Below, piece by piece: positions 13,321 to 30,117 of a stretch of 64,000 nt of DNA. Position 1 is the first letter of the stretch. The number at the start of each line of letters is the position of its first letter. The notes beneath the pieces are model-generated. The model ran no database searches. It worked only from the letters and a program-made list of their open reading frames with translations, and was not told the DNA's origin. This DNA is from Synechococcus sp. WH 8016 (GTDB lineage Bacteria > Cyanobacteriota > Cyanobacteriia > PCC-6307 > Cyanobiaceae): contig NZ_AGIK01000002.1 in NCBI RefSeq assembly GCF_000230675.1, positions 283,853 through 347,852 on the forward strand, in the 5' to 3' direction. The translations under genes and the position numbers were made by a program.

Positions 13321-14313
13321 TCATGGGGCCAGAAAAGCGAGGACGTCCTGCTCGCGCGGTTGTGGATCAATGGCACCGGCACCGCCACAAACGAGTGCAC
13401 CGCACGCTGCTGCAAAGCGCAACCGGTCGTTCACCGGTCGATCCCAATAGTGCAACAGTCCAGCAGTGAAGGCATCCCCTGCACCCGTGGTGTCGACCAC
13501 CTGAGATGGATGAAACACCGGCATGTTGCCCATCTGCTTCTCGATCCACCAGCGAACGGGTTCAGCTCCGTCGGTCACCACAACATCGGGCTCTTGGGGA
13601 AGAGATGCAGCAATCGCAACAGGATCATCATGACCGAAAAACCACAACGCCTCCTCTCGGGCCAACTTGATCAGGGAGGCCTGCTCCAACAACGGCTTGA
13701 TCACCGCCAATGCATCAGCGGTAGGACCAGCCGCTGGATCCGCCTCGGGATCCCAGAATGTGGGACGCCAGTTCACATCCAAAGCGAGCGCAAGACCCGC
13801 CGCCTTTGCCTGAGCCAACACCCACAGCAAAGCTTCGGCGGACGCCGTAGTCGCCAATGGAATCGTGCCCACTAACAACCAACGGGCCTGCTTCGACACA
13901 CCAGTCCAGACCGTTTCCAAGCCGGAACAATCCAGCATCTGGTCAGCAAACCCCAGGCTCTGATCTCCTGCAAAACCCTGAAAAACCCTTTCACCATTGG
14001 CATGACGTCGCACCAAGACCACCCGACTTGGTCGGCTTGGATCGGATTGAAGGGCTTGCACATCAACACCACGCCGCTGGAACAACGCCCGAAAGTCCGC
14101 GCCGATCGCGTCCTCACCGAGTCGACCAATCAGGCCCACGGCGGTGCCGAGCCGAGCGAGTGCACAGGCCACGTTGGCGGGTGCACCACCTAAGCGATCA
14201 TCACAAGCTTCCGGTGCAGCCGTAGCGTGATCCCCCCCCAGGGGACCAAGCCGATCCACCAACGCCTCACCCAGACACAACACTCGCGGAGCCAAAGCAG
14301 AACCTTCAGCCAT
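13321..14313 (-). CDS. PfkB-family sugar kinase (fructokinase-like)
   Basis: This cytoplasmic ribokinase/PfkB-family kinase has the N-terminal signature G-G-A-P-A-N-V-A near residues 42-49 and the C-terminal ATP and anion-hole signature D-T-T-G-A-G-D-A-F near 273-281, which holds the catalytic base aspartate. The 330-residue length and the opening V-L-C-L-G-E-A-L-V-D are typical of fructokinases, which phosphorylate fructose at O6, but the exact sugar is inferred. In marine Synechococcus such a kinase would help use the glucose/fructose from sucrose or related solutes. It lies 64 bp downstream of mutY on the same strand and is convergent with the phosphoribosyltransferase-like gene. Confidence 0.85.
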   Translation of the reverse strand: MAEGSALAPRVLCLGEALVDRLGPLGGDHATAAPEACDDRLGGAPANVACALARLGTAVGLIGRLGEDAIGADFRALFQRRGVDVQALQSDPSRPSRVVLVRRHANGERVFQGFAGDQSLGFADQMLDCSGLETVWTGVSKQARWLLVGTIPLATTASAEALLWVLAQAKAAGLALALDVNWRPTFWDPEADPAAGPTADALAVIKPLLEQASLIKLAREEALWFFGHDDPVAIAASLPQEPDVVVTDGAEPVRWWIEKQMGNMPVFHPSQVVDTTGAGDAFTAGLLHYWDRPVNDRLRFAAACGALVCGGAGAIDPQPREQDVLAFLAP

Positions 14314-14377: not shown

Positions 14378-15565
14378 TCAACTCATCCGTGGCAAATCCT
14401 TCAACAACGCCGCAATTATTTTGGCGTTCGCTGCAGGGAAGGGATAGTCAGCCAAACACTGCGGGCTCACCCAACGCACCTGCTGACTCGCCAATGGCTG
14501 CGGTTCACCGCTGATCCATTGGCAAAGGTGCACCACAAACCGCAGCTTTTTATGGCTGTAAGCGTGCTCAACGCTGATCAGCTCCTCCCCCACAGCCACC
14601 TCAATCGCCAATTCCTCCCGCAATTCACGAGAGATGGTCTCCACGATCAGCTCTCCCTGCTCCTGTTTCCCGCCGGGAAACTCCCAGAGGCCACCGAGCA
14701 GTCCCTCATTGAGACGTTGATCAATCAGCACCTCACCGGCTTCGTTCAGCACAACACCGACACCAATCACTTGAAAGGGAACAGCTCGAGGGGTGTCTTT
14801 CACGGGATAGCGACCAACATCGCCAGCAGCGTAAGCAGCGCAATGTTTCTGCCAAGGACAGACCCCGCAGTTTGGTGAATGGGGAGTGCAAACGGTGGCC
14901 CCCAGATCCATCAGCGCCTGATTGAGATCACGAGCACGGCTGGGTACGGCTGCAACAAGAGCCTCACTCCATTGCCAACACAAAGCCTGATCACGTGCTG
15001 GAGGTCTGGGATGGGCTTGAAGCCGTGCCAAGACCCGGCGCACATTGCCATCAAGAATCGCCAACGGGCTGTTGAAAGCAGAAGAAAGAATCCCAGCTGC
15101 AGTGGTGCGGCCAATCCCAGGGAGGCCCATCCAGCAGTCAAGATCCTTTGGCCAAGCCAAGAGCCTCGTGCTTGACGCAGGAGCGATCTGATCAAGCAAT
15201 GGCTTTGCTCCAGACAAAAGACGGCGGGCTCGCGAGTAGTAACCAAGCCCCTGCCACAACAGCAAAACATCGTGTTCACGCGCCTCCGCCAGTCGTTCAA
15301 TCGAGGGGAAAGCCTCCATCCAGCGCTCCCAGTAAGGCAACGCCACCTGCAACTGGGTCTGTTGCAGCATCACCTCGGCAATCCAGCACTCCAGGACATT
15401 GAGATGTTCATGGGGCTCGGGCCACCTTCCGTCCTTGGTGAACATCCACGGCTTCAGCGCAGGATCCTTCCGGCCGTGGACTTCCCACCAGGCCAGCAGG
15501 GAGTGACTGAGCTCAGCCGCTAGAGGACTGAAGTCGCGATGCTCAGCGCTGCGTCGTTGACCCAT
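14378..15565 (-). CDS. mutY: A/G-specific adenine DNA glycosylase MutY, chimeric 5' end
   Basis: MutY removes adenine mispaired with 8-oxoguanine. The 395-residue product has the catalytic A-E-V-M-L-Q-Q-T motif near residues 61-68, the helix-hairpin-helix L-P-G-I-G-R-T-T-A-A-G, the aspartate in L-A-I-L-D-G-N-V, an iron-sulfur cluster loop C-x6-C-x2-C-x5-C near 210-226, and a C-terminal NUDIX domain with G-G-L-W-E-F-P-G-G-K. The ATG at 15565 overlaps the resolvase stop as TGATG. Bases upstream of 15367 (the first 63 codons or so) come from the genomic island, and the original host 5' end survives as a fragment at 24920-25105. The chimera keeps every catalytic motif, so it should work, but its expression now depends on island sequence. 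A TTG start at 15580 is less likely. Confidence 0.95.
   Translation of the reverse strand: MGQRRSAEHRDFSPLAAELSHSLLAWWEVHGRKDPALKPWMFTKDGRWPEPHEHLNVLECWIAEVMLQQTQLQVALPYWERWMEAFPSIERLAEAREHDVLLLWQGLGYYSRARRLLSGAKPLLDQIAPASSTRLLAWPKDLDCWMGLPGIGRTTAAGILSSAFNSPLAILDGNVRRVLARLQAHPRPPARDQALCWQWSEALVAAVPSRARDLNQALMDLGATVCTPHSPNCGVCPWQKHCAAYAAGDVGRYPVKDTPRAVPFQVIGVGVVLNEAGEVLIDQRLNEGLLGGLWEFPGGKQEQGELIVETISRELREELAIEVAVGEELISVEHAYSHKKLRFVVHLCQWISGEPQPLASQQVRWVSPQCLADYPFPAANAKIIAALLKDLPRMS
15367..15376. other. Left attachment core of the mutY island
   Basis: GCATCACCTC here is identical to 24910-24919. Read on the minus strand it is GAGGTGATGC, which covers the codons for the catalytic Glu and following Val-Met of MutY. 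Sequence diverges right after it at the other copy, as expected for the crossover core of a serine integrase. Confidence 0.85.
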
Positions 15566-16338
15566 CAGGCAGCGACCCAAGCCTGGTCACTGCCCAGCAG
15601 CTTTCCCGACAAACCCAAGCGCTGCAGGATCCGACCGATCTGCGCCGGAGCCAGTGGCTTTCCCGTGCTGCTGAGCTTGCCAACCCCTGCAAGCGCATCA
15701 GCCATGGCCCTGTAGCTCAAGCCTGCACGAACCATTGGCTCAAGAACCCCGCGCAGTCCCTCCGCCTCAGCAATGGCCTTCTGCTTGCGCTCCGACGCCT
15801 TCTGAGCAGCACCTTCCCGGTACCCCCCAAGACACACGCCTCGGGCCTTGGCCGCGGCCAACGCTTCTTTAGTTCGCTCGCTGATCCGACGTGCCTCGAA
15901 CTCAGCAACGCTGGCCATCATCGTGAGAACCATCCGACCAGCACTGGTGGTGGCATCAATGTCTGGCAAGTCGCAGAAGATGAAGCCACCCATCCCGTTC
16001 TTTTCTGCCTCGTTGGCGAGCTTCAAGACGAAGCCAGCATCACGAGCCAGACGATCGATCTTGGCAACAGCAATGACAGCCTTCTCCGCGCGAGCCTGAG
16101 CCAGAGCCGCGGCCAACTGAGGACGATCGTTCTTCCGACCGCTCTCAACCTCCACGAATTCAGCCGCAATCACAGCCCCCCGCTCGGAAGCCATTACTTC
16201 AACCTTGGCCCGCTGCGCTTCGAGGCCCAGGCCGGAGTTTCCCTGGCGATCTGTACTGACCCGGTAGTAGGCCAGCCAACGACTCGGACTCAGAGGACGA
16301 TCAGGCAAAGACAACGGGAATCCAGTCGGTTGTTCCAC
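15565..16338 (-). CDS. Small serine recombinase (resolvase/invertase family)
   Basis: The N-terminal catalytic domain shows Y-Y-R-V-S-T-D-R-Q near residues 24-32, with the nucleophile serine, and the arginine-containing stretch K-I-D-R-L-A-R-D near 94-101, then R-I-S-E-R-T-K-E-A-L in the E-helix. The C-terminal 60 residues form a helical DNA-binding region. At 257 residues it is a small resolvase-type enzyme, unlike the 619-residue integrase at the other end of the island. It may resolve multimers or invert DNA. Its stop codon overlaps the mutY start (TGATG), so the island puts mutY under translational coupling with its own gene. Start ATG 16338 is followed by a proline-rich leader before the catalytic domain. 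Confidence 0.9.
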   Translation of the reverse strand: MEQPTGFPLSLPDRPLSPSRWLAYYRVSTDRQGNSGLGLEAQRAKVEVMASERGAVIAAEFVEVESGRKNDRPQLAAALAQARAEKAVIAVAKIDRLARDAGFVLKLANEAEKNGMGGFIFCDLPDIDATTSAGRMVLTMMASVAEFEARRISERTKEALAAAKARGVCLGGYREGAAQKASERKQKAIAEAEGLRGVLEPMVRAGLSYRAMADALAGVGKLSSTGKPLAPAQIGRILQRLGLSGKLLGSDQAWVAA

Positions 16339-16417
16339 AAGTCTACGTCGGTTGAACCTGTAACAGCGAACTTTATCGATGGGTAGTCAGCGCATGCCAT
16401 GAAGGCCGACGCTGAAC

Positions 16418-16558
16418 TCAATAAAGCCCCGAGTTATCCACCTTCAGAGCTACCGAGTTCTCCAGCACGATTCGTGCTGTCTGCGCATCGATGCCAGCAA
16501 GAGCCTGGAACTGGTCTGGACAAAGCTCAACTCGCGATAATGCGGAGCTTGATCTCAT
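16418..16558 (-). CDS. Small hypothetical protein of 46 residues in the island
   Basis: ATG 16558 is preceded by TAGGAGACAA, a strong ribosome-binding site, and the frame runs 46 codons to TGA at 16418. The product is acidic-neutral and has no membrane span. It opens M-R-S-S-S and contains the stretch E-L-C-P-D-Q-F-Q-A-L-A-G-I-D. It lies 79 bp upstream of the resolvase on the same strand and may start that transcript, which continues into mutY. I do not recognise a family. The ribosome site and gene spacing are what support it as real. Confidence 0.45.
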   Translation of the reverse strand: MRSSSALSRVELCPDQFQALAGIDAQTARIVLENSVALKVDNSGLY

Positions 16559-16577
16559 TTGTCTCCTAAAGGAATCC

Positions 16578-17111
16578 ATGAAGGCTTCGCGTTTTGCGCA
16601 CCTGTGTTCAACTGCCTTGCGACAGAGCTTGGTCGGAGCCTTCGTGGTCGTCTCACTGTTCTGGGTGATTCAACCGGTTGAGGCGCATGGTGATGCGAAA
16701 GGGGATGGTGAGATGCCCGTCACTAGTGGTGCGACCGGGCCACAGATAACGGTGTATCGATCGGCGAGTTGCGGTTGCTGTACGTCATGGGGATCCCACA
16801 TCGCTTCAGCGGGATACCGCATTGAGGACCATGTCACCGAGGACATGGATGCCGTGAAGAAGGCGCGTGGTGTCAGTCCGCAACAGGCTTCTTGTCACAC
16901 CGCTGTGGTGGAGGGATACGTGATCGAAGGGCATGTGCCTGCTTCTGCGATCCACCGTCTTTTGTCGGAACGGCCCAATATCCGTGGCCTGGCAGTTCCA
17001 GGGATGCCAATGGGTTCCCCTGGGATGGAGGTGGCAGGCGTTGAGGCTGAACGTTTCGAGGTGCTCGCTATTGCCCATGACGGAACAACCTCCGTCTTTG
17101 CGCGCTACTGA
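16578..17111 (+). CDS. DUF411 periplasmic metal-binding protein
   Basis: The first 38 residues or so form a signal peptide (basic start, hydrophobic core, cleavage near V-E-A-H-G). The mature part opens with a thioredoxin-like strand, I-T-V-Y-R-S, followed by S-C-G-C-C-T-S-W, the paired-cysteine site of DUF411 proteins, then C-H-T-A near residue 120 and I-x-G-H-V-P. DUF411 proteins are commonly found with copper resistance genes and are thought to bind or shuttle metal in the periplasm. The ATG at 16578 has AAGGA just upstream; the open frame to 16491 is non-coding in character. It is transcribed away from the resolvase and converges with the DUF305 operon. Confidence 0.88.
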   Translation: MKASRFAHLCSTALRQSLVGAFVVVSLFWVIQPVEAHGDAKGDGEMPVTSGATGPQITVYRSASCGCCTSWGSHIASAGYRIEDHVTEDMDAVKKARGVSPQQASCHTAVVEGYVIEGHVPASAIHRLLSERPNIRGLAVPGMPMGSPGMEVAGVEAERFEVLAIAHDGTTSVFARY

Positions 17112-17146
17112 GCGGTTTCAGGGAGACCGCTACAGAGAATGAGGTG

Positions 17147-17416
17147 TCATCGCGATGGCTTCAAGAGCATTGCCGCACCTGAGATGGTCACGATGACGGT
17201 GAGCCCACCCAAGAGCATTGGATAGACGGGCTGAAGGTTCAGAACACCGAAATTTCCGGTGTGGATCTTGAGCAGCCAAAAGGCATCAATGCCTTGCTCT
17301 AAGAGCAAGCTGTAGAGAGATCCCGTACCGGCGGTGATCAGCAACGGAACAGCGGCGATTGGAACCAGCCAACGGTGAATCTTGCGTGCTCGCCGTGAAA
17401 GCGGACGTTGGTTCAT
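17147..17416 (-). CDS. Small membrane protein resembling a PepSY-associated TM segment
   Basis: This 89-residue protein has two or three hydrophobic helices. The start, R-K-I-H-R-W-L-V-P, followed by a hydrophobic helix ending in a T-G-S-L-Y pattern, resembles the R-K-x-H-R-W helix of PepSY-associated membrane proteins. There is no catalytic or cysteine motif. Its start overlaps the stop of the DUF3721 gene by 4 bp (ATGA), so it is the last gene of a three-gene operon behind the MerR-type promoter. A role in metal handling is inferred only from this context. A short hairpin (AGCGGT 17111-17116 with ACCGCT 17126-17131) lies in the convergent gap downstream but lacks a U-tract. Confidence 0.7.
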   Translation of the reverse strand: MNQRPLSRRARKIHRWLVPIAAVPLLITAGTGSLYSLLLEQGIDAFWLLKIHTGNFGVLNLQPVYPMLLGGLTVIVTISGAAMLLKPSR

Positions 17417-17664
17417 AGCTTGCGAAGTTGGCGGTGGAGTTCACGCTCATCTGCGCAGGGCATCCACTTTCCGTTGTTCTGATGCAGCGTATTGCAACCA
17501 ATCTCACTGGCACGTTGTTGCGCGTCAGCTTTGGATTGGTAGATGCCTTTGCTGTGAGCATGGCTGGCCATGGGATGGACAACGAAAGCAGCGACGAGGG
17601 CGAATGAGATGGAGATCCATCCCATCATCGTTGTGGTGAAGGCATTAAAAGTGATTGCTTTCAC
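17413..17664 (-). CDS. DUF3721 secreted small protein
   Basis: The 83-residue protein has an N-terminal hydrophobic signal segment with a likely cleavage site at A-S-H-A-H near residue 36. The mature part is the compact DUF3721 domain, G-I-Y-Q-S-K-A-D-A-Q-Q-R-A followed by I-G-C-N-T-L-H-Q-N-N-G-K-W-M-P-C-A, with two conserved cysteines. The family is common in cyanobacteria; its function is unknown. Both ends overlap neighbours by 4 bp (ATGA), placing it tightly between the DUF305 gene and the PepSY-like gene. Confidence 0.85.
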   Translation of the reverse strand: MKAITFNAFTTTMMGWISISFALVAAFVVHPMASHAHSKGIYQSKADAQQRASEIGCNTLHQNNGKWMPCADERELHRQLRKL

Positions 17665-18359
17665 AGCGCGAAAAGGCCATCAAATTTGTAGTAGTCCGGC
17701 TTATTCAGTCCTCCGCTTTGCAGCATCTTGCGGAGTTCGATGATCTCTTTGCGCTGGGCGACGATGATCTCGCGCGCCAGGCGAAGGACGGTGGGGTTGG
17801 TGGAGTTTTGCCGAGCCTCATGTGCCATCTGAAGTGCGCCTCCATGGTGCTCAATCATTCCCTCTAAGAACCACTGCACCCTGTTGTCGCGCGTTGGCTT
17901 CGTTCCCGACATGCGCATCGCGGCAATCACATCAGGACTCATGCGCACCAGATCTGCCATGGAGTTGGGGTCCCCGTTAGGGCGCAATGCCACGGGATAA
18001 ACCGGTGCATCCGGATACCAGGCCTTGCGCCATTGGCGCATCGCCTTGATCTCACGGGCCTGTTCGTCCCAGATGCTGTTCGCAAGGGCTCCCACCCCAG
18101 GGGCGCCGATATTGAAGACGTACTCACTCATCCGCAACGCCCCGGTGTGATGCTCGACCATGCCATCGATAAAGCGCAGGTCGTAGGTGCTGCCTGCTGG
18201 TCCCATGCCATGGGCATGGTGCTGATGGTTGCCGGAATGGGGGGGTGCAGCCTCTTTCGTTTTTTCAGGTGCTGGGTGATGCATTTGGTCCATTTGGGCC
18301 AATGCGACTTGAGGGGGCAGTGCCGAGATGGCGGCCAGAGCAAAAGCGATTCGACGCAT
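17661..18359 (-). CDS. DUF305 family secreted protein, duplicated domain
   Basis: After a signal peptide (cleavage near A-L-A-Q-M) and a His/Met-rich stretch (Q-M-D-Q-M-H-H, H-Q-H-H-A-H-G-M) come two DUF305 halves. These are marked by F-I-D-G-M-V-E-H-H-T-G-A-L near residue 65 and F-L-E-G-M-I-E-H-H-G-G-A-L near 165. The paired histidines and methionines are typical of DUF305, a ferritin-like helical family associated with copper and other metal responses. The ATG at 18359 gives a normal signal peptide; the frame also allows GTG 18374, which lies close to the promoter. It is the first gene of the operon driven by the MerR-type promoter. Confidence 0.88.
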   Translation of the reverse strand: MRRIAFALAAISALPPQVALAQMDQMHHPAPEKTKEAAPPHSGNHQHHAHGMGPAGSTYDLRFIDGMVEHHTGALRMSEYVFNIGAPGVGALANSIWDEQAREIKAMRQWRKAWYPDAPVYPVALRPNGDPNSMADLVRMSPDVIAAMRMSGTKPTRDNRVQWFLEGMIEHHGGALQMAHEARQNSTNPTVLRLAREIIVAQRKEIIELRKMLQSGGLNKPDYYKFDGLFAL

Positions 18360-18380
18360 GGAAAGAACAATCACGTCGCT

Positions 18381-18411
18381 ATCGTGGAGTCTCCAGTAAG
18401 TGGAGAGTCAA
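18381..18411 (-). promoter_or_regulatory. MerR-type promoter and operator for the DUF305 operon
   Basis: Reading the minus strand, a -35 box TTGACT (18411-18406) and a -10 box CACGAT (18386-18381) are separated by 19 bases, longer than the normal 17. The spacer contains a dyad CTCCA-n5-TGGAG (18391-18405). A dyad inside an over-long spacer is the hallmark of promoters activated by MerR-family regulators, and the merR-like gene begins 7 bases beyond it on the other strand. Confidence 0.8.
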
Positions 18412-18417
18412 CCCTTC

Positions 18418-18798
18418 GTGCCTAAAGCGCCTGGCGATCTACTCAAGATTGGAGTTGTCTCTGCAAGAAGCAACATTTCGGTGAAAACGATTCGTTTTTA
18501 TTGTGATGAAGGTTTATTGCTGCCAGTATCACGTACCGATTCCAGATATCGATTGTTTGATGAGTCTGTTTTTGACGATCTTAGTCTAATCCTTCGTCTG
18601 CGGGCCATGGACTTGCCTCTTGATTTGGTGAAACAAGTAATTCAGGCACAGCGATCTGGAATCTGTACTTGCAGTGATCTCAAGACCACGATGCGCGAAA
18701 AATTAAGCGAGATTCATGAGCGCCTGGATGAATTGAAGGTGCTGGAGACTGAGATCAAAACGATGTTGAAGAGCTGGGAGCCTTGTGGCGGGGCTTGA
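18418..18798 (+). CDS. MerR-family metal-responsive regulator
   Basis: The N-terminal winged helix-turn-helix reads L-K-I-G-V-V-S-A-R-S-N-I-S-V-K-T-I-R-F-Y, the standard MerR DNA-binding start, followed by the second helix pair and a long dimerisation helix. The C-terminal part has C-T-C near residue 86 and a final C-G-G-A, placing possible metal-binding cysteines where CueR, CadR and similar sensors have theirs. The GTG at 18418 places the start close to the HTH, as is normal; the open frame to GTG 18400 would start inside the operator. It probably controls the divergent DUF305 operon and possibly itself. The metal is inferred to be copper from the DUF411, DUF305 and oxidase neighbours. Confidence 0.88.
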   Translation: MPKAPGDLLKIGVVSARSNISVKTIRFYCDEGLLLPVSRTDSRYRLFDESVFDDLSLILRLRAMDLPLDLVKQVIQAQRSGICTCSDLKTTMREKLSEIHERLDELKVLETEIKTMLKSWEPCGGA

Positions 18799-18822
18799 TC
18801 AGTCGTACGAGTATCGCAGTGT

Positions 18823-18999
18823 TCAGGCTTCAATCAAAATATTTCCCATCATGCCGAGATCCTCGTGATCAAAAACGTGGCAATGATAAACGCTTTTTCC
18901 TCCAAAGTCGTTGAAGCGGGTGCGCGCTTGGACGGTTTCTACATGCTGCACAAAAGGCCGCATCGAGGCCAGCCTCATCAATCCATCGCATGGAAGACC
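18823..18999 (-). pseudogene. Multicopper oxidase C-terminal remnant
   Basis: The minus strand encodes R-F-N-D-F-G-G-K-S-V-Y-H-C-H-V-F-D-H-E-D and then L-G-M-M-G before a stop at 18823. This is the H-C-H-x3-H-x4-M copper-site signature of CopA/CueO-type multicopper oxidases, which oxidise cuprous ions in the periplasm. Upstream the frame is broken by TAA at 19000-19002, and other oxidase-like residues are only in other frames, so the gene has lost about nine tenths of its length. It sits between the MerR gene and the TerS-like gene and supports a copper role for the cassette. Confidence 0.75.
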
Positions 19000-19106
19000 T
19001 TAGAGCTGAACGCCGGAGGTTTTCTGGAGCCAGATGGCGCTGACGGGGACCAGCTTCAAGAAGCTCTCATGCTGTGTTCACTCCATCTTTCCGTCAAAAG
19101 TCTTCG

Positions 19107-19592
19107 TTAGTTCGAAAAATCTTCAAGCAGCCCTGCGACCCCAAGAGCCGTCGCCTCGATGTTCATGGCACCCTCCAAGGCCTTGCAGGCCGCGGCCATT
19201 ACGGAAGGAAGCTCACGCCCTTGGAGAACGGTGCCAGCTTCCAGGTGATGCCTGACGCTGCGCTCGACCATCGCCAGTAGCTCTTCAGCTCGATCTCCAA
19301 CGGTGCGAGCTCGTGCGAGCTGCTCTTGTCGGAACGTCTCAAGCTGGTATTTGCAGCGCTCAAGGTCCTCCTTCGTTCGTGCCTCTGATGCCTGCTGAAG
19401 CATCCCGGAGTCGTAGTCAGCCAGACGCTCGTTCCAGCGCCACTGTTCTGCTCGTCGGCGCAGGGTTGATTCAGAGCAGCCCACAACATCCGCTGTCTGA
19501 CTGAACTGACGACTGGGGCCAAAGTCTCGATGCAGCAGGAGCTGCTCGAAGGCATCTGCGGGCTCACCAGGGAGTTGTGGGAAGGAGTTCAT
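19107..19592 (-). CDS. TerS-like protein (phage terminase small-subunit type, HTH plus helical)
   Basis: From M-N-S-F-P-Q-L-P-G-E the protein reads like many putative phage small terminases. A first block (A-D-A-F-E-Q-L-L-L-H-R-D-F-G-P-S-R) leads into a helix-turn-helix (V-V-G-C-S-E-S-T-L-R-R-R-A-E-Q-W-R-W) and then W-N-E-R-L-A-D-Y-D. A long helix rich in Glu, Arg and Gln follows, and a short C-terminal segment. Small terminases recognise the packaging site; no large terminase lies in the island. In phage satellites a lone TerS can redirect helper-phage packaging, which is the suggestion here. The start could also be TTG 19622. An alternative reading is a general HTH regulator. Confidence 0.6.
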   Translation of the reverse strand: MNSFPQLPGEPADAFEQLLLHRDFGPSRQFSQTADVVGCSESTLRRRAEQWRWNERLADYDSGMLQQASEARTKEDLERCKYQLETFRQEQLARARTVGDRAEELLAMVERSVRHHLEAGTVLQGRELPSVMAAACKALEGAMNIEATALGVAGLLEDFSN

Positions 19593-19648
19593 CGACTTGT
19601 GCGCTTTCCAACAGGCTTCCAACGGGCTTCAAGCAGCGTCATCGAGCT

Positions 19649-19858
19649 TCATCCGGAAGAGCCAAACCATTCGGATTGGTGGTGATTTTGTAGCTGCTCA
19701 GAGTGATCTAGCGGGCAGCATTCCCAGCGAAGTGGACGTCCTCCAGTCGCCTCCCACTGCTTCTCGATGAAGGCTCTACGCCTTCTCTCCATCCATCCTG
19801 AGGATCTATTGGGTTGGCCCTTGTAAAAGGAATCAAGATCGGTTCTAAAGGAAGCCAA
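19649..19858 (-). CDS. Hypothetical 69-residue protein, doubtful
   Basis: The frame starts with TTG and gives a basic product (E-R-R-R-R-A-F-I-E-K-Q-W) followed by a small Cys-Cys-containing tail. There is no clear ribosome site. It is in the same direction as the TerS-like gene, 57 bp upstream of it, and could be a small phage-like protein. I do not recognise it, and the frame may be a chance opening. Confidence 0.25.
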   Translation of the reverse strand: MASFRTDLDSFYKGQPNRSSGWMERRRRAFIEKQWEATGGRPLRWECCPLDHSEQLQNHHQSEWFGSSG

Positions 19859-20060
19859 GAGAGAGAGGTAACTACTCCAGGCTTCCGGTTGTTATCGACA
19901 TTCCGAACGAACCTGAACAAGCCCAGGTAACTTGAAGGGTTGGCATTTCGAGGTAGTTGCCACCGCTTCGGAACACTTGCAACGAGAACAACAACTGCTC
20001 TCTTGCCACTTCTGTGGCGAACTTAAACAACCTCAGGAGTAGCTCCCTGAGCCGGATAGC

Positions 20061-20132
20061 CACCTCGTTTGGGTTCATTGGCCCTGTGTGTGCGAGGTGG
20101 TCGGTCCGGACCTTCCTCACACACAAACCCAA
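20061..20132. repeat. Nested palindrome before the rep gene, candidate origin or control element
   Basis: Around a perfect palindrome GGTCCGGACC (20103-20112) lie paired arms: GAGG 20094-20097 with CCTC 20115-20118, GTGTGTG 20086-20092 with CACACAC 20118-20124, and TTGGGTT 20069-20075 with AACCCAA 20126-20132. An alternative 7-bp hairpin pairs CACCTCG 20061-20067 with CGAGGTG 20093-20099. The structure runs into the ATG of the Rep-like gene. It could be a replication origin, a Rep operator or an RNA structure controlling Rep translation. Confidence 0.5.
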
Positions 20133-22843
20133 TGCGCAAGAACTTTCAGGGCCTCAGGCCCCACACAACTGAGCAACTCAGAGCCGAGTTAGTTGTCGAC
20201 CATCTGATTAATCTTGACGATTACATCCGCGGAGCGATCACGCTTGGCGCTGATGAAGGCTGGCGTGAGGCGTTAAATCGCAAGGCACAGGAGCAGATCA
20301 AGGAGGTCAAAGAAAATCTCAACCTGCGCCCTAACGAGGTCGCCTGGGAAGAGCGCTCCATCACTCGCAAGACGGACTACAGGTTCCGAGAAACTCCGCC
20401 CGAGAACTGGAACATCTACAGCGTCGGGATGACCAACAAAGGCGTGCTTCTGACCGGACTGCACTTTGCAGGCCAACGCAAGCACCCCAGCATCCGCACC
20501 CGAGAGAAGGGTGAAGTTCGCTTCGACTGCACCGGCACCCAGGTGAAGGTCTACCTCCCGCCGTTGACGTGGGAGTACGCCTTGCATCTGCTGGATCATC
20601 ACGGGTTCATCTGCACTCGGGAGGAGTACACCCCGGAGATGGCATGGCAGTTCATCTTCAGTAACCCGGCGGTCCCCATCTGGGTCGAGGAATCAGCCCT
20701 TAAGGCGTTGTCTGCGACCTCCCATGGTCAGCTCGCCGTCGGCATTAACGGCATCAACTCAGCAGGGCAAAAGACCCGATCAGATCGCCTCCGTGTGCCC
20801 CTGCAGAAGCTCGCGAAGGGTGGCCGTCGGATGATTGTCAGGTTTGACAACGGCAGCAACTCTGAGCGCGCTGCGCAGCGAGTAGCAGGGCAGCTGAATC
20901 GAGCTGGAGCTGATGCCAACTGGTTCACCTGGACAGATCCAGGCAAGGCCAAGACGGACGACTACTTCGCGGCGAAGGGCAAGGCACTGGTCGCCGGCAC
21001 GTTTGACCGCTCAGCCGATCAAACCGACAGCTTCAACCTGAACGAGGGTCAAAAGGGCCATTACTCCCGACTGAAGGGCAACTGGCGGACGACCACGATC
21101 GATCGCGAGTTCGAGCCGGAGGACCTGGTCAAGGCGCGGATGCAGGGGCGAATTATCGCCCTGGAGGGCCCCACGGGTACTGGCAAGACCAAGGCCTCAG
21201 TCGGTGCCATTGACCTGATGGAGCAGGCCCTGGGCCACAAGGTCATCGTGCTGGGTCTGTATCACCGTGCCTCGCTGGTCCACAAAGGCGCTGCTGAGTT
21301 CGGTGTCAGGGACCTCAGCTCATCCAGAGGCACGTTTGAGCGTGAACGTGGAGAGCGCAGGGACGGTCTGTTCTGCTGCTGCGAATCGATCAAGAAGGAC
21401 AGCGGCGAGTTGGACATGTGGAGATGGAGCCACGACCTGGAGGAGAACCCCAGGCCAGCTGTGCTGTTCCTTGACGAGCTCACCCAAGCAACCCTGCATC
21501 TGCTCCTGGACGGGACTGACGGGATGAGAGACAGCAGGCGTGAGGCGATCCGGTCAGTTGAACGGTTGATACGAAACCCAGAGCTCATCATCATCGCTGC
21601 TGAAGCGGGCATAGGCGACATCGAGCTGGAATGGCTACAGGCGCTGTCTGGTGTTCAACCTCAGGTCATCAACACCACGTTTCGCCGGCAGTCCGACCTG
21701 TTCTATGGCGCCGCTACTGCTGACAACATCGACAAGCTCCAGCAGCTGTGCGGACAGACCATCGATCAAGGCCAGCAGGTCTGGCTCTCGATGGGCGAAG
21801 CAGAGTCACTGAAGAAATTCAGCGCACCTTTTTCTCGCAGCTTTCTGATCCACAGCGACAACTCCTCATCCTTGGAGGTCGCTGAACTGATGTCCAACAC
21901 CAATGCGGTCGCAGGTCAGTACACCTTGGTCGGATACAGCCCATCTGTGGTCTCTGGCATCTCGTATGAGGCCTCAACCGTTGGCATCGCTGCTTGTGTG
22001 CAGCAATTCGCGATGGCCCCCCAAGACGCCATGCAAGCCGTCGCCAGGGCACGAAGCGCAGATCGGCGGATCATGCTGTCGCCTGTCTCAGCACCGATGG
22101 CAAAGATCGGAACTGGGCGGACATCACAAGAAGAGGTCAGCCGTGCCAGGTTCACTGCGATCGACCCGAAGATGCAGGAGCTCTACCGAGACCACCTGAA
22201 AGGCGTTGACCCGGCAACCGTGCGCTACTCAGTCGCCCTCGAAGCTCGGGTCAACTATGAGGCCGTCAATAACGAGCACGTGTTGGCATGCCGCCTCAAG
22301 GATCAGGGCTACACGCTCCGGCCGTTTGACGAGCTGATCAGCGACAACGCTGTTGTTATCCCGAAGGCTCAGCGGGATAAACAGAAAAAGCAGGCTGAAC
22401 TGAGCCGCCGGACCCAGCTGATCCATGAGGTCATGACTGGTCAGAAGACCATTGACCAGGCCAACTCAGAGGCCAGTAGGGAGACCAAGAACGGCATTTG
22501 GGTGGACCTGGCAGCGGTAGACCCCAGCCATGCCTATGTGTGGATGCTGCGCGTCAGGGTGCATGACCTGATCGCTGCAAGGTCATTCACTGTCGATAGC
22601 GCTGAGTTCCGCGCGATGGCAGCAGAGGTGCAGAGCCTGAATAAGCACGAGGCACGGGAACTGCGAGACATCCTCGGTGGCCGCGTCACCATTCCTGGAC
22701 CAGACGACGACGTCCCCGCAACGTTCGCCAAGGCGCTGCTCAAGGTGGCGGGGTTCACCACCCAGAGGCAGAGGCTCCAGGTTGATGGCGTCCGTACCTA
22801 CCGCTTTGAGGTGATCGCGTTGGAGCTGTCCCCATTCTTGTAG
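20132..22843 (+). CDS. Rep-like primase/helicase (CyRepA1/DUF3854-type replication protein)
   Basis: The 903-residue protein has an N-terminal region with W-V-E-E-S-A-L-K-A-L-S near residue 190 and, about 60 residues on, R-F-D-N-G-S-N. This is the toprim-like arrangement of DUF3854, expected to act as a primase or nicking domain. A P-loop, L-E-G-P-T-G-T-G-K-T near 345, follows, then L-F-L-D-E-L-T near 450 as the Walker B, and a helicase-like C-terminal half. This layout matches the cyanobacterial plasmid replication proteins called CyRepA1. The ATG at 20132 directly follows the palindrome; an in-frame ATG/GTG further up would cover it. Presence of a full replication protein argues the island can replicate when excised. 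The stop codon lies in a 12-bp inverted repeat. Confidence 0.75.
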   Translation: MRKNFQGLRPHTTEQLRAELVVDHLINLDDYIRGAITLGADEGWREALNRKAQEQIKEVKENLNLRPNEVAWEERSITRKTDYRFRETPPENWNIYSVGMTNKGVLLTGLHFAGQRKHPSIRTREKGEVRFDCTGTQVKVYLPPLTWEYALHLLDHHGFICTREEYTPEMAWQFIFSNPAVPIWVEESALKALSATSHGQLAVGINGINSAGQKTRSDRLRVPLQKLAKGGRRMIVRFDNGSNSERAAQRVAGQLNRAGADANWFTWTDPGKAKTDDYFAAKGKALVAGTFDRSADQTDSFNLNEGQKGHYSRLKGNWRTTTIDREFEPEDLVKARMQGRIIALEGPTGTGKTKASVGAIDLMEQALGHKVIVLGLYHRASLVHKGAAEFGVRDLSSSRGTFERERGERRDGLFCCCESIKKDSGELDMWRWSHDLEENPRPAVLFLDELTQATLHLLLDGTDGMRDSRREAIRSVERLIRNPELIIIAAEAGIGDIELEWLQALSGVQPQVINTTFRRQSDLFYGAATADNIDKLQQLCGQTIDQGQQVWLSMGEAESLKKFSAPFSRSFLIHSDNSSSLEVAELMSNTNAVAGQYTLVGYSPSVVSGISYEASTVGIAACVQQFAMAPQDAMQAVARARSADRRIMLSPVSAPMAKIGTGRTSQEEVSRARFTAIDPKMQELYRDHLKGVDPATVRYSVALEARVNYEAVNNEHVLACRLKDQGYTLRPFDELISDNAVVIPKAQRDKQKKQAELSRRTQLIHEVMTGQKTIDQANSEASRETKNGIWVDLAAVDPSHAYVWMLRVRVHDLIAARSFTVDSAEFRAMAAEVQSLNKHEARELRDILGGRVTIPGPDDDVPATFAKALLKVAGFTTQRQRLQVDGVRTYRFEVIALELSPFL

Positions 22844-22875
22844 TGGGGTCTATAGATCTACACACCCCACTACAA
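22838..22875. repeat. Perfect 12-bp inverted repeat over the rep stop codon
   Basis: TTGTAGTGGGGT (22838-22849) pairs with ACCCCACTACAA (22864-22875) around a 14-base loop that itself contains the palindrome TAGATCTA. The rep stop codon TAG is inside the left arm. Neither strand shows a U-tract after the stem, so it is not a standard terminator; it may be a protein-binding or recombination site, or a messenger end structure. Confidence 0.7.
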
Positions 22876-22998
22876 AAACAGGGCAACGTCCAACATCTTT
22901 CCAGTCCATAGAGTCGCCACACTCAGCTCGAAGCAAAGAAGACTGTTGATAACTCGAACAGAGCGCCTTCAGGGAACTGCTGAAGCTCACGCTTGTTT

Positions 22999-24858
22999 TC
23001 ATTGTCGTCCCTCGCTTCTATCGCCTCCAAGATCAACTTCGTAACCAAGCTCTGATGCACGGAAGCGAGCAATCTCTTGGAGACCAGCCACAACCTCTGG
23101 GGGGAAGACAGGCCGCGGAAACTTGCCAGGCTCCTTGATCACCCCTCCTCGTCCTGTCACCAGTTGATTGAACCAAGTCTTGCCAGCGAACAAGAAGGCA
23201 AAGCCGCGCTCGTAACCCATCGCTCGCAGGGCATGCAGCTCTCCAAGCGCAGTCCCCCAGGAATCCGTCGGAAACCCATTGGGACCAAGCCGGTTGTAGT
23301 GAAGCTGAATCGAGTCTCCACTCATGACCCAAGAAATACCGAGCTGCTGAAGCCAAGAGTTGAACTGCATCCGTTTGGGAATCTCTTGAAGCCCATGCTG
23401 AAGAAACTGGGACACGATCTCGACTGTGTCCTGCGCCTTCAGCACAGGGTCCTGAGGGCGTAACTCGCTGAGCCTGTAGTTCAACTCAGAAATCTCTCGC
23501 TCGAGCTCTAGAACTTGCTCACGCGCCTGAGAGATGGCACCGGTCAGAACAGAGACCTGAATCTCGTTGGGCAGCTCCTTCGTCAGCTCTTCAGCAAGAC
23601 GATGTTCACCGCGCTGAATCCTTCCACTGAGCTCCTGAAGCTGATCGTTTGCAGTACGGATCTGCCTGCTCAAATCCTCCACTTCCGGCCCCATCTGGAT
23701 GGGGAAGAGGTTCTGCCAGTCGGCCAACGACAAGGTCGCCATCAGCATCGCCTCGGCCTCATCCAAAGGAAGATTGATGGTCGGCGACTTCCGCCAAGCA
23801 CCAAGCTGCTCACGACATCGCGTCGCACCCTGCTTTGCGACCGCACCAGCACTGTCAGAACAGGTGACATAACCGGGATGCCCGGGTCTGGCGTATCGAC
23901 CGGCCGCCCTGTAAGTCAACAGAGACCCACAACCCGCGCAACGGACCAAACCACTGAACAGGAAGTGAACTTTCCGCGCCTTGGTGGTTGAACGCTTCCG
24001 ATCACGCGTTGCCTTCGCCCGTTGGGCTCTTGTGAAGGTCTCCTGATCAACAACAGAGGGGTAATAACCCGGTATCTCATGGCTGTTTTTGCGCTGCAAC
24101 AAGCCGGTGACAGCGGGGTCCCTTAACCGTTGACTCACTTGACCACGGTTCCAACGACCGTCCTTAGATGCAGGAGGGGCTGCATAGCCCTCCGTATTCA
24201 GCTCATCGGCAATCTGCGTCTGGCCCATCCCCGCCAGGCACATCTTGAACATGGCCTCGATCGACTTGGCGTAGCCGTTTAAGCGAAATGGGTTGTCAGG
24301 CAACGACTCATCCCGGTCAATCCAGTAGGGATTGCGATGCCGCGGCCTCTCACCACGATCCTGCGCCTCGTAAATCTTGCGCCACCCACCACGAGACCAT
24401 TTCGACTTCTCGTCGCTCTCGGCATGAGCCTGTGCGAAGAGGAACGACAGCATGGCGAGGTCTTGGGCCCCAGTCGTCTCTCTGAACAAAGGAGAGCCAC
24501 CCTGATAGCTGCAGACCGCAAACCCAAGCCCCTGCCCCCAGACATCCCGGATCAGAGACTCCAGTGCATCCAGAGGCTCTTGCCTGGAGAAGCGCCTGTG
24601 ATCCTCAACGACCAGCACGGACCCCTTCGGGATAGAACCGGAGCGAGCTGCCTCTAGAAACCGCCCCAGCGCCCCTTGGGTGCGGTTCCGGCCGGTGTAA
24701 GCGCTGACGCCTGGATCGAGAAGTTCCTCAGCAAGACGAAAGTCGGGATGCCTGCGCATCCAATCCTTTAGAGCCTCCTCCTGGCGCTGCAGACCTGACT
24801 TATCGCCTTGTGCCTGGCCACCACTGGAAACGCGGCGATAGGAATAAGCCAGCGCCAT
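22999..24858 (-). CDS. Large serine recombinase (integrase of the island)
   Basis: This 619-residue enzyme has the full large-serine-recombinase layout. The catalytic domain contains Y-S-Y-R-R-V-S-S-G-G-Q (nucleophile serine near residue 11) and V-E-D-H-R-R-F-S-R near 85-93. The recombinase domain spans about 160-290. A zinc ribbon has C-A-G-C near 310 and further cysteines near 335-350. A long coiled coil spans about 390-460, and a C-terminal tail follows. Such enzymes join attP and attB in one direction and need a directionality factor to excise. The start at 24858 lies 51 bp from the right attachment core, as expected when the integrase borders its own att site. The target appears to be the catalytic-motif codons of mutY. 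Confidence 0.93.
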   Translation of the reverse strand: MALAYSYRRVSSGGQAQGDKSGLQRQEEALKDWMRRHPDFRLAEELLDPGVSAYTGRNRTQGALGRFLEAARSGSIPKGSVLVVEDHRRFSRQEPLDALESLIRDVWGQGLGFAVCSYQGGSPLFRETTGAQDLAMLSFLFAQAHAESDEKSKWSRGGWRKIYEAQDRGERPRHRNPYWIDRDESLPDNPFRLNGYAKSIEAMFKMCLAGMGQTQIADELNTEGYAAPPASKDGRWNRGQVSQRLRDPAVTGLLQRKNSHEIPGYYPSVVDQETFTRAQRAKATRDRKRSTTKARKVHFLFSGLVRCAGCGSLLTYRAAGRYARPGHPGYVTCSDSAGAVAKQGATRCREQLGAWRKSPTINLPLDEAEAMLMATLSLADWQNLFPIQMGPEVEDLSRQIRTANDQLQELSGRIQRGEHRLAEELTKELPNEIQVSVLTGAISQAREQVLELEREISELNYRLSELRPQDPVLKAQDTVEIVSQFLQHGLQEIPKRMQFNSWLQQLGISWVMSGDSIQLHYNRLGPNGFPTDSWGTALGELHALRAMGYERGFAFLFAGKTWFNQLVTGRGGVIKEPGKFPRPVFPPEVVAGLQEIARFRASELGYEVDLGGDRSEGRQ

Positions 24859-24892
24859 GGAGAGGCTTGCCCGACACAGACAAGCTAGTCAC

Positions 24893-25105
24893 CTATGCCG
24901 CAGAGCACCGCATCACCTCCGCGATCCAAATGCCATAGGGAGACAACATCTGATTTGGCAGCGGCCAGGCTTGATCAGCGGTGAACATCCATGGTTTCTG
25001 CAGCGGATCTCTTCGGCCATCCACCTGCCACCACTCCAGCAAGAGCAAACTCCTCTCCTGGGTGACAAGAGACAAGTTCCCTGGGTCCGTAGCAGCGGGG
25101 GGCAC
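24893..25105 (-). pseudogene. mutY: Orphaned 5' fragment of the host mutY
   Basis: From GTG 25105 the frame encodes a MutY N-terminus (L-L-E-W-W-Q-V-D-G-R-R-D-P then K-P-W-M-F-T) and reaches W-I-A-E-V-M at the attachment core (24910-24919). It then runs into island sequence and stops at 24893. By eye it matches the N-terminus of the intact mutY at about 26 of 44 positions. It is the piece cut off by island insertion and is non-functional because it lacks everything after the catalytic Glu-Val-Met. Confidence 0.9.
24910..24919. other. Right attachment core of the mutY island
   Basis: GCATCACCTC, identical to 15367-15376. To its right the mutY 5' fragment continues; to its left the sequence no longer resembles mutY. 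Confidence 0.85.
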
Positions 25106-25128
25106 GATGGTGGTGATGCGAGAAAACC

Positions 25129-26028
25129 ATGGTGCACTGGCTAGCGGTTCTGGCGCCTTTCGCTCTCTGGCTTGGTGCGGGCTTTGTCGAACCAGCCAGA
25201 AGCAAGCCAGAAGCTCAGGAGCTGAAGCAGCTGAACCGCTCAGCGACGCATGCCGACCGCAACTGGCGCGCCTTTTGGAGGCATCACCTGGGAGATTGGA
25301 GAGGAAGCTGGACGCGCTATACCCCCTCCGGCAAGGTCAAGGAGACCTTCGCGAGCTCACGACTCTTCAGGGCAGACCCAGCCAAGAGTGAGATTGTCCA
25401 GGTGAATCGCTACCGCTATGCAGACGGGCGTTCGATCGAGAAAACGTGGGCATTCAACATCAAGGATCACAGTCAAGCGGATGGATTTGCCCATCCCGCC
25501 AGCGACGCCATGCGTGGTTTAGCCCTCGACAACGGCGCTGCGGCCTGGCTGATTCCCACCCTCAAACCCAACAAGTTCGCGCCCTTTGAACTCTTTCTCA
25601 AGCGTGGAGACATTCGCCACAGCGTCGGAGTGCTCTACGGGAAGAATGGTGAATTGCTGCGAACAGCCAGCATTAGAGAAAAGCGCGGAAGCCAATCAGA
25701 CATCGACTGGACAGACACCGTTGTCCAAGTAGAGCCTTGGAATCCCGTTGGCCGCTGGAAAGGTGAGCAGCGACAGATCCAAGCCAATCTCTCCCGCGTT
25801 CCCGTGCAGAGCTCCGATTGGCAGTGGATAGACAACCACCAGACCAACCACTTCTTACCGGATCGAATCATCCTGCGCTGTCCTGAGCGAATCACCCCGG
25901 GGCAAGCCTTCTTCATTCGCGTGATCTGGCTAGTGGATGACGGTGAGCTCCAGACGATCACAGCTCACTACAACAGCGAGTTTCAATTAATGGCTGTGAC
26001 GCACCACGCGCTCACACCCGAAAGCTGA
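25129..26028 (+). CDS. Conserved cyanobacterial protein, DUF3598-like
   Basis: The 299-residue product starts with a short hydrophobic segment (likely signal peptide or anchor). The body then opens R-N-W-R-A-F-W-R-H-H-L-G-D-W-R-G-S-W-T-R-Y, the W-rich opening of DUF3598 proteins. It continues as a mainly beta, lipocalin-like sequence, with I-I-L-R-C-P-E near residue 245 and R-V-I-W-L near 265. DUF3598 members are nearly restricted to cyanobacteria and have no firm function; a bilin- or lipid-binding barrel is a guess. It starts 23 bp from the orphan mutY fragment, divergently, so it marks the first host gene to the right of the island and may have shared the old mutY promoter region. Confidence 0.6.
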   Translation: MVHWLAVLAPFALWLGAGFVEPARSKPEAQELKQLNRSATHADRNWRAFWRHHLGDWRGSWTRYTPSGKVKETFASSRLFRADPAKSEIVQVNRYRYADGRSIEKTWAFNIKDHSQADGFAHPASDAMRGLALDNGAAAWLIPTLKPNKFAPFELFLKRGDIRHSVGVLYGKNGELLRTASIREKRGSQSDIDWTDTVVQVEPWNPVGRWKGEQRQIQANLSRVPVQSSDWQWIDNHQTNHFLPDRIILRCPERITPGQAFFIRVIWLVDDGELQTITAHYNSEFQLMAVTHHALTPES

Positions 26029-26133
26029 TCATGGGCCACACCTTAAGATTTGCGGTCAAACCACGGATTGGACTGCGTCTTACCGGGAAAGCGCTGCCGG
26101 TGATGACACTCACCTGGGACGCACTTCAAGGAA

Positions 26134-27297
26134 TTAAAACGTTGTGCGATTGGTCGTGGCCCCAGGCCCTGCGAGTGCTTCCTTGCGAAGCTGTTGGACC
26201 AAACCGTTGCGTTTGAGCTGGCTAATCGAAAGATTGATTCGCTTCACCGTTTCAGGATTGAGCTCAGGGGACAAAGCAAATCCTTGAAGCTCAGGGCGGA
26301 TCCCAGACATCGCCAAAACAGGGATGATTCCTGCAGAAGCCGCATGAGACTGGAGATAACGAAGCTGCAACTCGTCTGCCAGCACCGCATTCACGCGACC
26401 ATCCTTGACCGCCACCAAGGAATCGCGAATCGACTCGATAGGTACACGACCAGGCTGAGATTGACGCGAAGAAGCCGTCAACCGAATTCCAATCTCCTTC
26501 AATAACTCTTCACTCACAGTTCCCGATTTATAGCCAATACGCATACCTGATAATTCATCAAAAGAACTCAAACGACGACTGGCTAAACCCTGTGCCTCTT
26601 GAACTAATTCCACAGTGAGAAACCCCACCAAAACTGCACTGGAAATATTGCGAACGACATAGCCCGCTATTAACACAGCGCGGCCTCTGGACGTATTAAT
26701 AATCTCCGCATCTCCCTCCCCAGTCAGAATAATCGTAAATATTTTGACAAATCGATGCAAGCGACCCTTCCCCCCATATTTGACCAATCTCGAATAATCT
26801 TCAACCCACCAAACAAGTGCACTCATCACAAACAACGACAATGTCAAAAGGGCGACCATCCGCAACAACGAAGGGCTGAGCATCGCTGCAAGAAAAGCTC
26901 GACTCAAGCTGAACGGATCATTGGCAACCATGACCGCCTGGCCATCTTCCTGAAAAGGCAAGCTAAATCTATAATTGCGAAGTCGGTTAGGGCTTAAATT
27001 AATACATTCAACAGCCACATCAAGGTCATTAGTACGAGTCGCATCCAACATCGATGCAATGGAAGGCATCCGAATCAGCCTGTAATGAAGATTCTCGCGC
27101 TGTGCAACTTGCGTCCAAAGTTCGACAGCCAGACCCTTCCAGATACCAGATTCGCGATAACTGCAGGGCTGACTTCCATCAACGACACCGACCCGTAAAA
27201 CTCGCGGTTCTGCCAAACCAGCCACAGGAACGCATACACTCCAGCCAAGCAGCAGAGAAGCAGCAATTAAGAAGCGACGCCTAAAGAGTTGATTCAT
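26134..27297 (-). CDS. GluR0-like ligand-gated ion channel with altered pore motif
   Basis: A signal peptide is followed by a periplasmic-binding-protein fold (L-R-V-G-V-V-D-G onwards). This fold is split by a channel module: a membrane helix (about residues 145-165), a re-entrant P-loop, and a second membrane helix (about 205-230), after which the second lobe (M-R-I-G-Y-K-S-G-T) resumes. That is the architecture of prokaryotic glutamate receptors such as Synechocystis GluR0. The selectivity region reads L-T-G-E-G-D where GluR0 has T-V-G-Y-G-D, so tyrosine is replaced by glutamate. The S1/S2 lobes should bind an amino acid. The ATG at 27297 gives the cleanest signal peptide; ATG 27324 is also in frame. 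Similar genes are annotated as GIC-family channels in marine picocyanobacteria. Confidence 0.82.
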   Translation of the reverse strand: MNQLFRRRFLIAASLLLGWSVCVPVAGLAEPRVLRVGVVDGSQPCSYRESGIWKGLAVELWTQVAQRENLHYRLIRMPSIASMLDATRTNDLDVAVECINLSPNRLRNYRFSLPFQEDGQAVMVANDPFSLSRAFLAAMLSPSLLRMVALLTLSLFVMSALVWWVEDYSRLVKYGGKGRLHRFVKIFTIILTGEGDAEIINTSRGRAVLIAGYVVRNISSAVLVGFLTVELVQEAQGLASRRLSSFDELSGMRIGYKSGTVSEELLKEIGIRLTASSRQSQPGRVPIESIRDSLVAVKDGRVNAVLADELQLRYLQSHAASAGIIPVLAMSGIRPELQGFALSPELNPETVKRINLSISQLKRNGLVQQLRKEALAGPGATTNRTTF

Positions 27298-27589
27298 TCT
27301 CAACCCACGAACAACTTTCCCCATAAATCATTCCGACACGAAAGCACTGATCTTCAAAACGTTAATTCCCACAAGCCGCTAGTAAAATAATACAATCACA
27401 GACGCAATGCAAGCTGGCAAGCAACTAGATACCGGCGCAAATACATTGCAAATTACTTGATCACCAATATCCGAGAACCTTTATTGATGCCTACAAAAAT
27501 ATTTAACTTGCAAGAGTGAGGCATAAAAAATAAGACACTCAGCTCAATTCACCTGAGCCTCCTTCTCATTCCGAATCTGAATGCGAATC

Positions 27590-27720
27590 GACAAACGCAG
27601 GAAGGGAAAGAACGTCACACCTCAAAGAACCGCTTTGGCCAAGCTGATCACCTAGGTTTCATCCGTCTGATTCATTTCGGATTGAGCAGCAACGTGCAAC
27701 GCCCTGCCCGCAAACTGCGG
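27590..27720 (+). pseudogene. Degenerate duplicate of the 5' end of the following glycosyltransferase
   Basis: This stretch resembles 27769-27900, the leader and first codons of the next gene. Both contain GACAAACG, GGAAAG, CCGCTTTGGCCA(A/G)GCTGATCA, and later GTGCAACGCC. In this copy the TTG-started frame stops after six codons. The offset is about 180 bp, indicating a tandem duplication that has decayed. The rest of the 27325-27815 intergenic region shows no other feature. Confidence 0.6.
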
Positions 27721-27815
27721 GGTTACTTCCGCACATTGCGGCAATGCCGGCCGATTCAGCAAGCAAAATGACAAACGTGGGAAAGTGAAGAAACGCCAGA
27801 TCTCACATCACCGCT

Positions 27816-28913: not shown

Positions 28914-28985
28914 TTGTCAGCAACAAGCTGGGGCCTCATCTGCCTCCAAGAAGAGGTAAGGTCCGCGCATCTCATCGGTTGCATT

Positions 28986-30113: not shown

Positions 30114-30117
30114 GCCG

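Follow-up and report, generated by a model that had tools for sequence, protein, structure and literature searches.

Phage satellites combine an integrase, a replication protein and a terminase small subunit (TerS) on a small island, and integration of SXT supplies a new functional start to the prfC gene. Elements of the SXT/R391 family, which are conjugative and encode a tyrosine recombinase, are described as inserting site-specifically in the 5' end of prfC (PMC2791158). SpyCI of Streptococcus pyogenes is reported to silence mutL and to make its host a mutator, with a cryptic promoter rescuing one strain (PMC3430984). Among picocyanobacteria, tycheposons and tRNA-linked islands are described with tyrosine recombinases and tRNA sites (PMC10872708, PMC10187409), and a small serine recombinase often lies near the tRNA-linked integrase (PMC10187409). 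Many genomic islands reconstitute the gene that they enter, according to an account of the TIGER/Islander collections (PMC12884075), from the main text of which mutY is absent. Gene-restoring islands are already known, but a mutY target with a serine integrase was not found described: our literature search returned no paper on mutY as the site of a serine integrase, in line with the statement in the initial annotation of this DNA that its author knew of no element described at this site in marine cyanobacteria.

Here we analyze a stretch of 64,000 nucleotides from Synechococcus sp. WH 8016 (the window) and compare it with 400 genomes of its family, in which the window's own genome is G000. An island of about 9.5 kb (approximately 15376-24918) occupies mutY. 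We consider it very probable that this is a mobile element that inserts by means of its integrase, exchanges the start of mutY, likely spreads as a satellite with changing cargo (here, copper genes) and leaves a scar after its loss. Specifically, the large serine recombinase of the island would insert the element within the catalytic-Glu codon, at its first two bases. Integration would swap the host mutY start for that of the island and leave an open hybrid mutY, because one inferred attP arm reproduces the initial 63 mutY codons as coding sequence. Translation of the hybrid gene would be coupled to the small recombinase gene, the replicated island circle would be packaged by cyanosiphophages, as whose satellite the element would spread, and the exchanged start would, judging from the comparison of genomes, persist as a scar once other parts of the island were lost.

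The 10-bp core GCATCACCTC has exactly two copies in the window, at 15367-15376 within the intact mutY (left junction, attL) and at 24910-24919 within an orphaned mutY 5' fragment (right junction, attR), just as had been claimed; the copies are 9,543 bp apart, and at least two matches were found in 1 of 100 shuffled windows (mean 0.19). The initial annotation had drawn the island as 15367..25105. The island is real, but 24920-25105 (minus strand) is host DNA just beyond it, namely the orphaned original mutY start of the host, and the orphan fragment ends at a stop shortly past the right core. The hybrid mutY (14378..15565, minus strand) consists of 63 codons from the island (15377..15565, minus strand), the last ~25 nt of which form one inferred attP arm, followed by host sequence. 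It likely starts at the ATG at 15565 instead of the TTG of the listed reading frame (14378-15580), and its product has HhH-GPD and NUDIX_4 domains. The core encodes Glu64 of the hybrid protein. In the alignment, this Glu pairs with chain residue 43 in a bacterial MutY (PDB 6q0c), in agreement with the earlier placement of the core in the catalytic-Glu codon; we take this residue to be the catalytic one (E43; E37 in Escherichia coli). The claim that the island-borne 63 codons keep mutY intact holds for the reading frame, which is open, and the hybrid MutY is predicted to keep working.

Uninterrupted mutY genes are present in G007, G024 and G020, where mutY is followed by the gene found at 13321-14313 of the window and preceded by DNA that matches 28947-33752 at 92-95 per cent. 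The expectation that an island-free mutY would resemble the orphan was borne out: the 5' 127 nt of these three genes match the orphan at 76-79 per cent versus 61-65 per cent for the current start. Between the orphan and the flank common with these genomes, the window contains genes for DUF3598, SBP_bac_3 and glycosyltransferase proteins (25106-28946), which are absent beside mutY in G007, G024 and G020; this is a second variable segment at the locus. No convincing second mutY remnant was detected in 25121-29200 (best E-value of 0.11 among the matches listed).

From left to right, the island carries the mutY start, a small serine recombinase, copper-related genes, a TerS homolog, a replication protein and a large serine recombinase. 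The gene of the small recombinase (257 aa; 15565..16338, minus strand) ends in a TGA that overlaps the mutY ATG (TGATG). The cargo comprises a DUF411 protein (16491..17111, plus strand; the reading frame opens at 16491 and the true start may be later), a DUF3721 protein (17413..17664, minus strand), a DUF305/CopM-like protein (17661..18374, minus strand; CopM score of 86.7, with a cut-off of 90) and a MerR-family regulator (18400..18798, plus strand). A candidate C-terminal remnant of a multicopper oxidase was noticed by eye on the minus strand at ~18800-18925. The TerS homolog (19107..19592, minus strand; ATG at 19592, reading frame listed to 19622) matches phrog_6299 (E-value of 6.7e-12). 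The replication protein (20132..22843, plus strand; ATG at 20132, reading frame listed from 20069) has a DUF3854 domain and a partial match to the CyRepA1 plasmid replication family (114.6 bits, below the cut-off of 200). An inverted repeat (22819..22894), a possible two-way terminator, lies where the replication and integrase genes converge. No capsid or tail gene was matched among the island proteins scanned, a set that covers part of the small reading frames.

The integrase is a protein of 619 aa (22999..24858, minus strand), the start of which is 51 bp from the right core, as previously noted; the interval 24859..24918 is the integrase-side attP arm, now in attR. An N-terminal resolvase domain (PF00239, E-value of 1.1e-13) is followed by a Recombinase domain (PF07508, E-value of 3.1e-13), an order that fits the large serine recombinase type. 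The protein also matches the integrase family phrog_95 (E-value of 4.3e-54), and its zinc-ribbon match (PF13408) reaches 20.1 bits with a cut-off of 25.3. In a protein collection, one integrase cluster at 95 per cent identity has 161 member sequences. No relative was found in the PDB at an E-value of 0.001, and the relatives in phage (74) and plasmid (26) records are all below 60 per cent identity, with none covering 80 per cent of the query in one place. A fragment that resembles integrase residues 571-609 (64 per cent) is located elsewhere in the window's own genome (G000:C1:552843-552959).

Integrase homologs with E-values of at most 1e-30 occur in 19 of the 400 genomes, and close relatives (68-100 per cent identity) in eight (G000, G017, G027, G128, G256, G290, G360 and G342), those of G360 and G342 being partial or broken. 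G128 and G256 belong to a different genus from WH 8016, and their integrase proteins are 100 per cent identical to that of the window. When the three islands are aligned, there are zero differences in 15367-16376 and 19670-24919. All columns that differ from the window (168 in G256 and 146 in G128) fall within 16377-19669 and, except for 19669 (both genomes) and 19037 (G128), are confined to the copper region, no further right than 18634. To the right of the island (24920-25105), identity of the window to G256 and G128 drops to 51 and 46 per cent; to the left, it is 76 and 75 per cent in 15300-15366 and 59 per cent in 15000-15366. The outer flanks are syntenic among the three genomes. Judged from these alignments, this is one element that has spread recently into the identical base of mutY in two genera. 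The search for the integrase beside mutY that had been proposed as a check was also positive: the same family adjoins orphaned mutY starts in G027, G128, G256, G290 and G342. In G192, an integrase of about 40 per cent identity likewise adjoins a mutY start, which ends in GCCGAGG, and no mutY match was found within the 19 kb examined around the integrases of G115 and G186 (34-36 per cent identity).

The copper cargo (16377-18634) differs by 6-13 per cent in stretches among the three otherwise identical islands, and G256 has an additional copy of part of it elsewhere (86 per cent); cargo appears to have been exchanged within a fixed backbone. Homology between the islands of the window and G017 breaks off at 16367 and restarts at 18995, and in this gap the G017 island carries genes that, named by eye, are for a ZnuA-like binding protein, a HupE-like protein and a porin-like protein. 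The interval 16367-18995, flanked by terS and the small recombinase gene, is a slot for cargo. In the related mutY island of Synechococcus sp. BO 8801 (matching G290 by identity and positions; L060 13566-18497), the cargo is a Type ISP restriction-modification protein of 1643 aa.

A native-type orphan (YGIW or YGVW) beside the integrase is combined with an island-type start at mutY in G000, G027, G128, G256, G290 and G342, and mutY with an island start is open in these six genomes and in G360. Using a DNA pattern for C-W-[IV]-A-E-V-M, we found island-type starts in 17 of the 400 genomes, in four genera and always at mutY; the backward control of the pattern gave none among the matches listed. 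Nine of the 17 have no close relative of the integrase (G004, G008, G013, G025, G121, G177, G246, G322 and G327), and we read their island-type starts as scars of lost islands. Three of these genomes (G004, G008 and G327) have remnants of the small recombinase gene at mutY, and the other six have the start alone. The VL.CW motif is not matched by G246 (FYGCW), G121 and G004 among the 17, and G246, the arm of which is 59 per cent identical to that of the window, may be unrelated. The mutY gene of G013 (L037), a genome with an island-type start, has an in-frame TAG 115 codons past the Glu codon, and is either a pseudogene, in which case the strain is perhaps a mutator, or reflects a sequencing error.

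Between the two main genera, island-type starts have 81.2 per cent identity versus 70.5 per cent for the gene bodies, with the start higher in 41 of 48 pairs, whereas native starts have 59.0 per cent versus 78.1 per cent (start higher in 4 of 136 pairs), a native set that includes G030 and G059 with their partly island-like starts. Island-type pairs within a genus have no start excess (79.3 versus 78.7 per cent; 22 of 43). These values are pairwise identities calculated without a tree, and they exclude G013, the gene body of which contains a stop codon, and six genomes of the genus with a native start that lacks the W of the search motif (L011, L012, L017, L018, L019 and L027). The dN/dS ratio of the island mutY start relative to the G017 copy is 0.08, indicating that this cassette is kept as coding DNA. 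By these comparisons, the island-carried mutY start moves between genera.

The initial annotation had held that genomes with both the mutY fragment and the current mutY start, but without the island, would speak against it. Such genomes exist: G059, G030 and G009 have the fragment and the current start without a full-length integrase of the island's family, of which none was found in G059 and G030 and remnants were found in G009. Because remnants of the small recombinase gene persist close to mutY in all three, we read these loci as decayed islands, and the overall reading is still supported. In G009 (L033 5000-14900), there are layered insertions at mutY: a 26-aa integrase start, 100 per cent identical to that of the window, lies beside a mutY start that itself overlaps a gene for a small recombinase, and beyond an SBP gene there is another remnant of mutY.

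G017 has an island-type start and a remnant of the small recombinase gene at mutY. Elsewhere (L031/L055), it carries an element with a 96 per cent identical integrase that interrupts a CobW-type GTPase gene between its cobW and CobW_C domains, with znu-like transport genes adjoining. The joined flanks give one intact 436-aa frame. As read from the sequence, the CobW-type gene is broken without restoration by the island. Since the two junctions share CCTC only (4 bp), the crossover would lie in GAGG; both copies of the 10-bp core are present as first described, but exchange needs less than 10 bp. The inferred G017 site matches mutY attB at 20 of 40 flanking positions, compared with a mean of 10.3 for 427 GAGG sites (from three loci, two of them overlapping), three of which reach 20.

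We assembled the inferred attP from the cassette end and the integrase side for G000, G027, G290 and G342. It has an imperfect dyad centered between the G and A of GAGG (mean of 13.5/24), a score that was reached at some center in 0.0002 of 5000 column shuffles; attB has no dyad. At the level of sequence, the inferred attP fits the pattern of large serine recombinases, an imperfect inverted repeat with a 2-bp center, and the predicted central dinucleotide is GA (15376-15375), the first two bases of the Glu64 codon. A pattern for the excised attP was found in none of the 400 family genomes and had no match in viral contigs. One arm of the inferred attP is mutY coding DNA. If this dual use is true, a single run of ~25 nt must serve both as a binding site for the integrase and as MutY code beside the catalytic Glu, which would explain VLECW in island starts as opposed to PYGIW in native ones. 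The scar, being attL and not attB, would be refractory to a second insertion, and incoming islands would be driven to secondary sites. The mutY gene of G017 bears a scar, and the close island copy of this genome is in the CobW-type gene. We also considered whether the attP arm is more conserved than other cassette parts. This holds for G290 (78 per cent against 50 and 59 per cent) and fails for G027 (81 per cent against 93 and 89 per cent), and the native pair G020-G007 has a similar gradient.

Recombination between homologous mutY genes, instead of site-specific integration, could have brought the common DNA, since the island ends in conserved mutY DNA and starts are swapped between lineages. 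However, identity stops at both cores in three genomes, an integrase is next to the right core, the copy in G017 lies within an unrelated gene that has only 4 bp in common, and the attP dyad is at the core; we regard this explanation as highly improbable. The integrated island might instead control mutY as SpyCI controls mutL, with control of the mutation rate as the selected trait. The insertion hits a repair gene in its 5' part, mutY overlaps the small recombinase gene by TGATG, and SpyCI is a described precedent (PMC3430984). Nevertheless, an open replacement start under purifying selection (dN/dS of 0.08) suits preserved repair, and we find such a switch unlikely.

How the element spreads is a closer question. 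The island has its own integrase, its own replication protein and a predicted packaging gene, terS, and the encoded TerS is related to annotated TerS proteins of cyanophages PSS2 and S-CBS2 (25-28 per cent identity; five of the seven matches in phage records are to one of these two). This combination, on which the initial annotation did not remark, suggests a phage satellite. It is possible, if well short of probable, that the island is instead an integrative, plasmid-like cargo element, of which the circle is replicated by the CyRepA1-like protein and moved by conjugation helpers, vesicles or DNA uptake, with TerS being a relic or having another role. The match to CyRepA1 points this way, although it is below the cut-off (114.6 versus 200 bits), as does the lack of relatives of the element among phages and viral contigs: none of the four proteins scanned for in viral contigs (integrase, replication protein, TerS, small recombinase) was found there, and no phage record matched the replication protein. 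Furthermore, a frameshift interrupts terS in G027, and the gene was not found in the examined loci of G290 and G342. On the other hand, the dN/dS ratios of TerS (0.21 versus G017 and 0.12 versus G360; 0.13 for the integrase) indicate purifying selection, and its relatives are in phages that infect the same host group. We favor the satellite. The fullest form of this reading, in which a cyanophage satellite has an attP arm that doubles as MutY code, rewrites the MutY N-terminus across genera, ties its translation to the satellite's recombinase and leaves a scar that blocks re-entry, is put forward as a tentative proposal.

Both attP and attB can be read from the set of six occupied, three empty and one secondary site, and the integrase might serve as a genetic tool. 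A core repair enzyme with its first 63 codons swapped between genera would distort mutY gene trees, and the exchange may affect mutation rates.

In comparison with described systems, the mutY island resembles the SXT/R391 elements in that it enters a conserved protein gene at the 5' end, but differs in its large serine recombinase, its mutY target and the lack of conjugation genes among the island proteins scanned. Like SpyCI, it is a phage-like island that occupies the 5' end of a gene for DNA repair (PMC3430984); SpyCI, as described, silences mutL, whereas the mutY island restores the frame of its gene by its own start. Like phage-inducible chromosomal islands and other satellites, it is small and carries an integrase, a replication protein and TerS, but it sits in mutY via a large serine recombinase. 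Tycheposons, finally, are cargo-bearing islands of the same host group. The mutY island uses a serine recombinase and a protein gene instead; the island proteins scanned include no tyrosine recombinase, the window has no tRNA gene, and the proposal that it belongs to a class separate from tycheposons, as these are described, fits both the type of integrase (serine) and the site (mutY). Gene exchange among picocyanobacteria would thereby gain a serine-integrase route with a protein-gene site.
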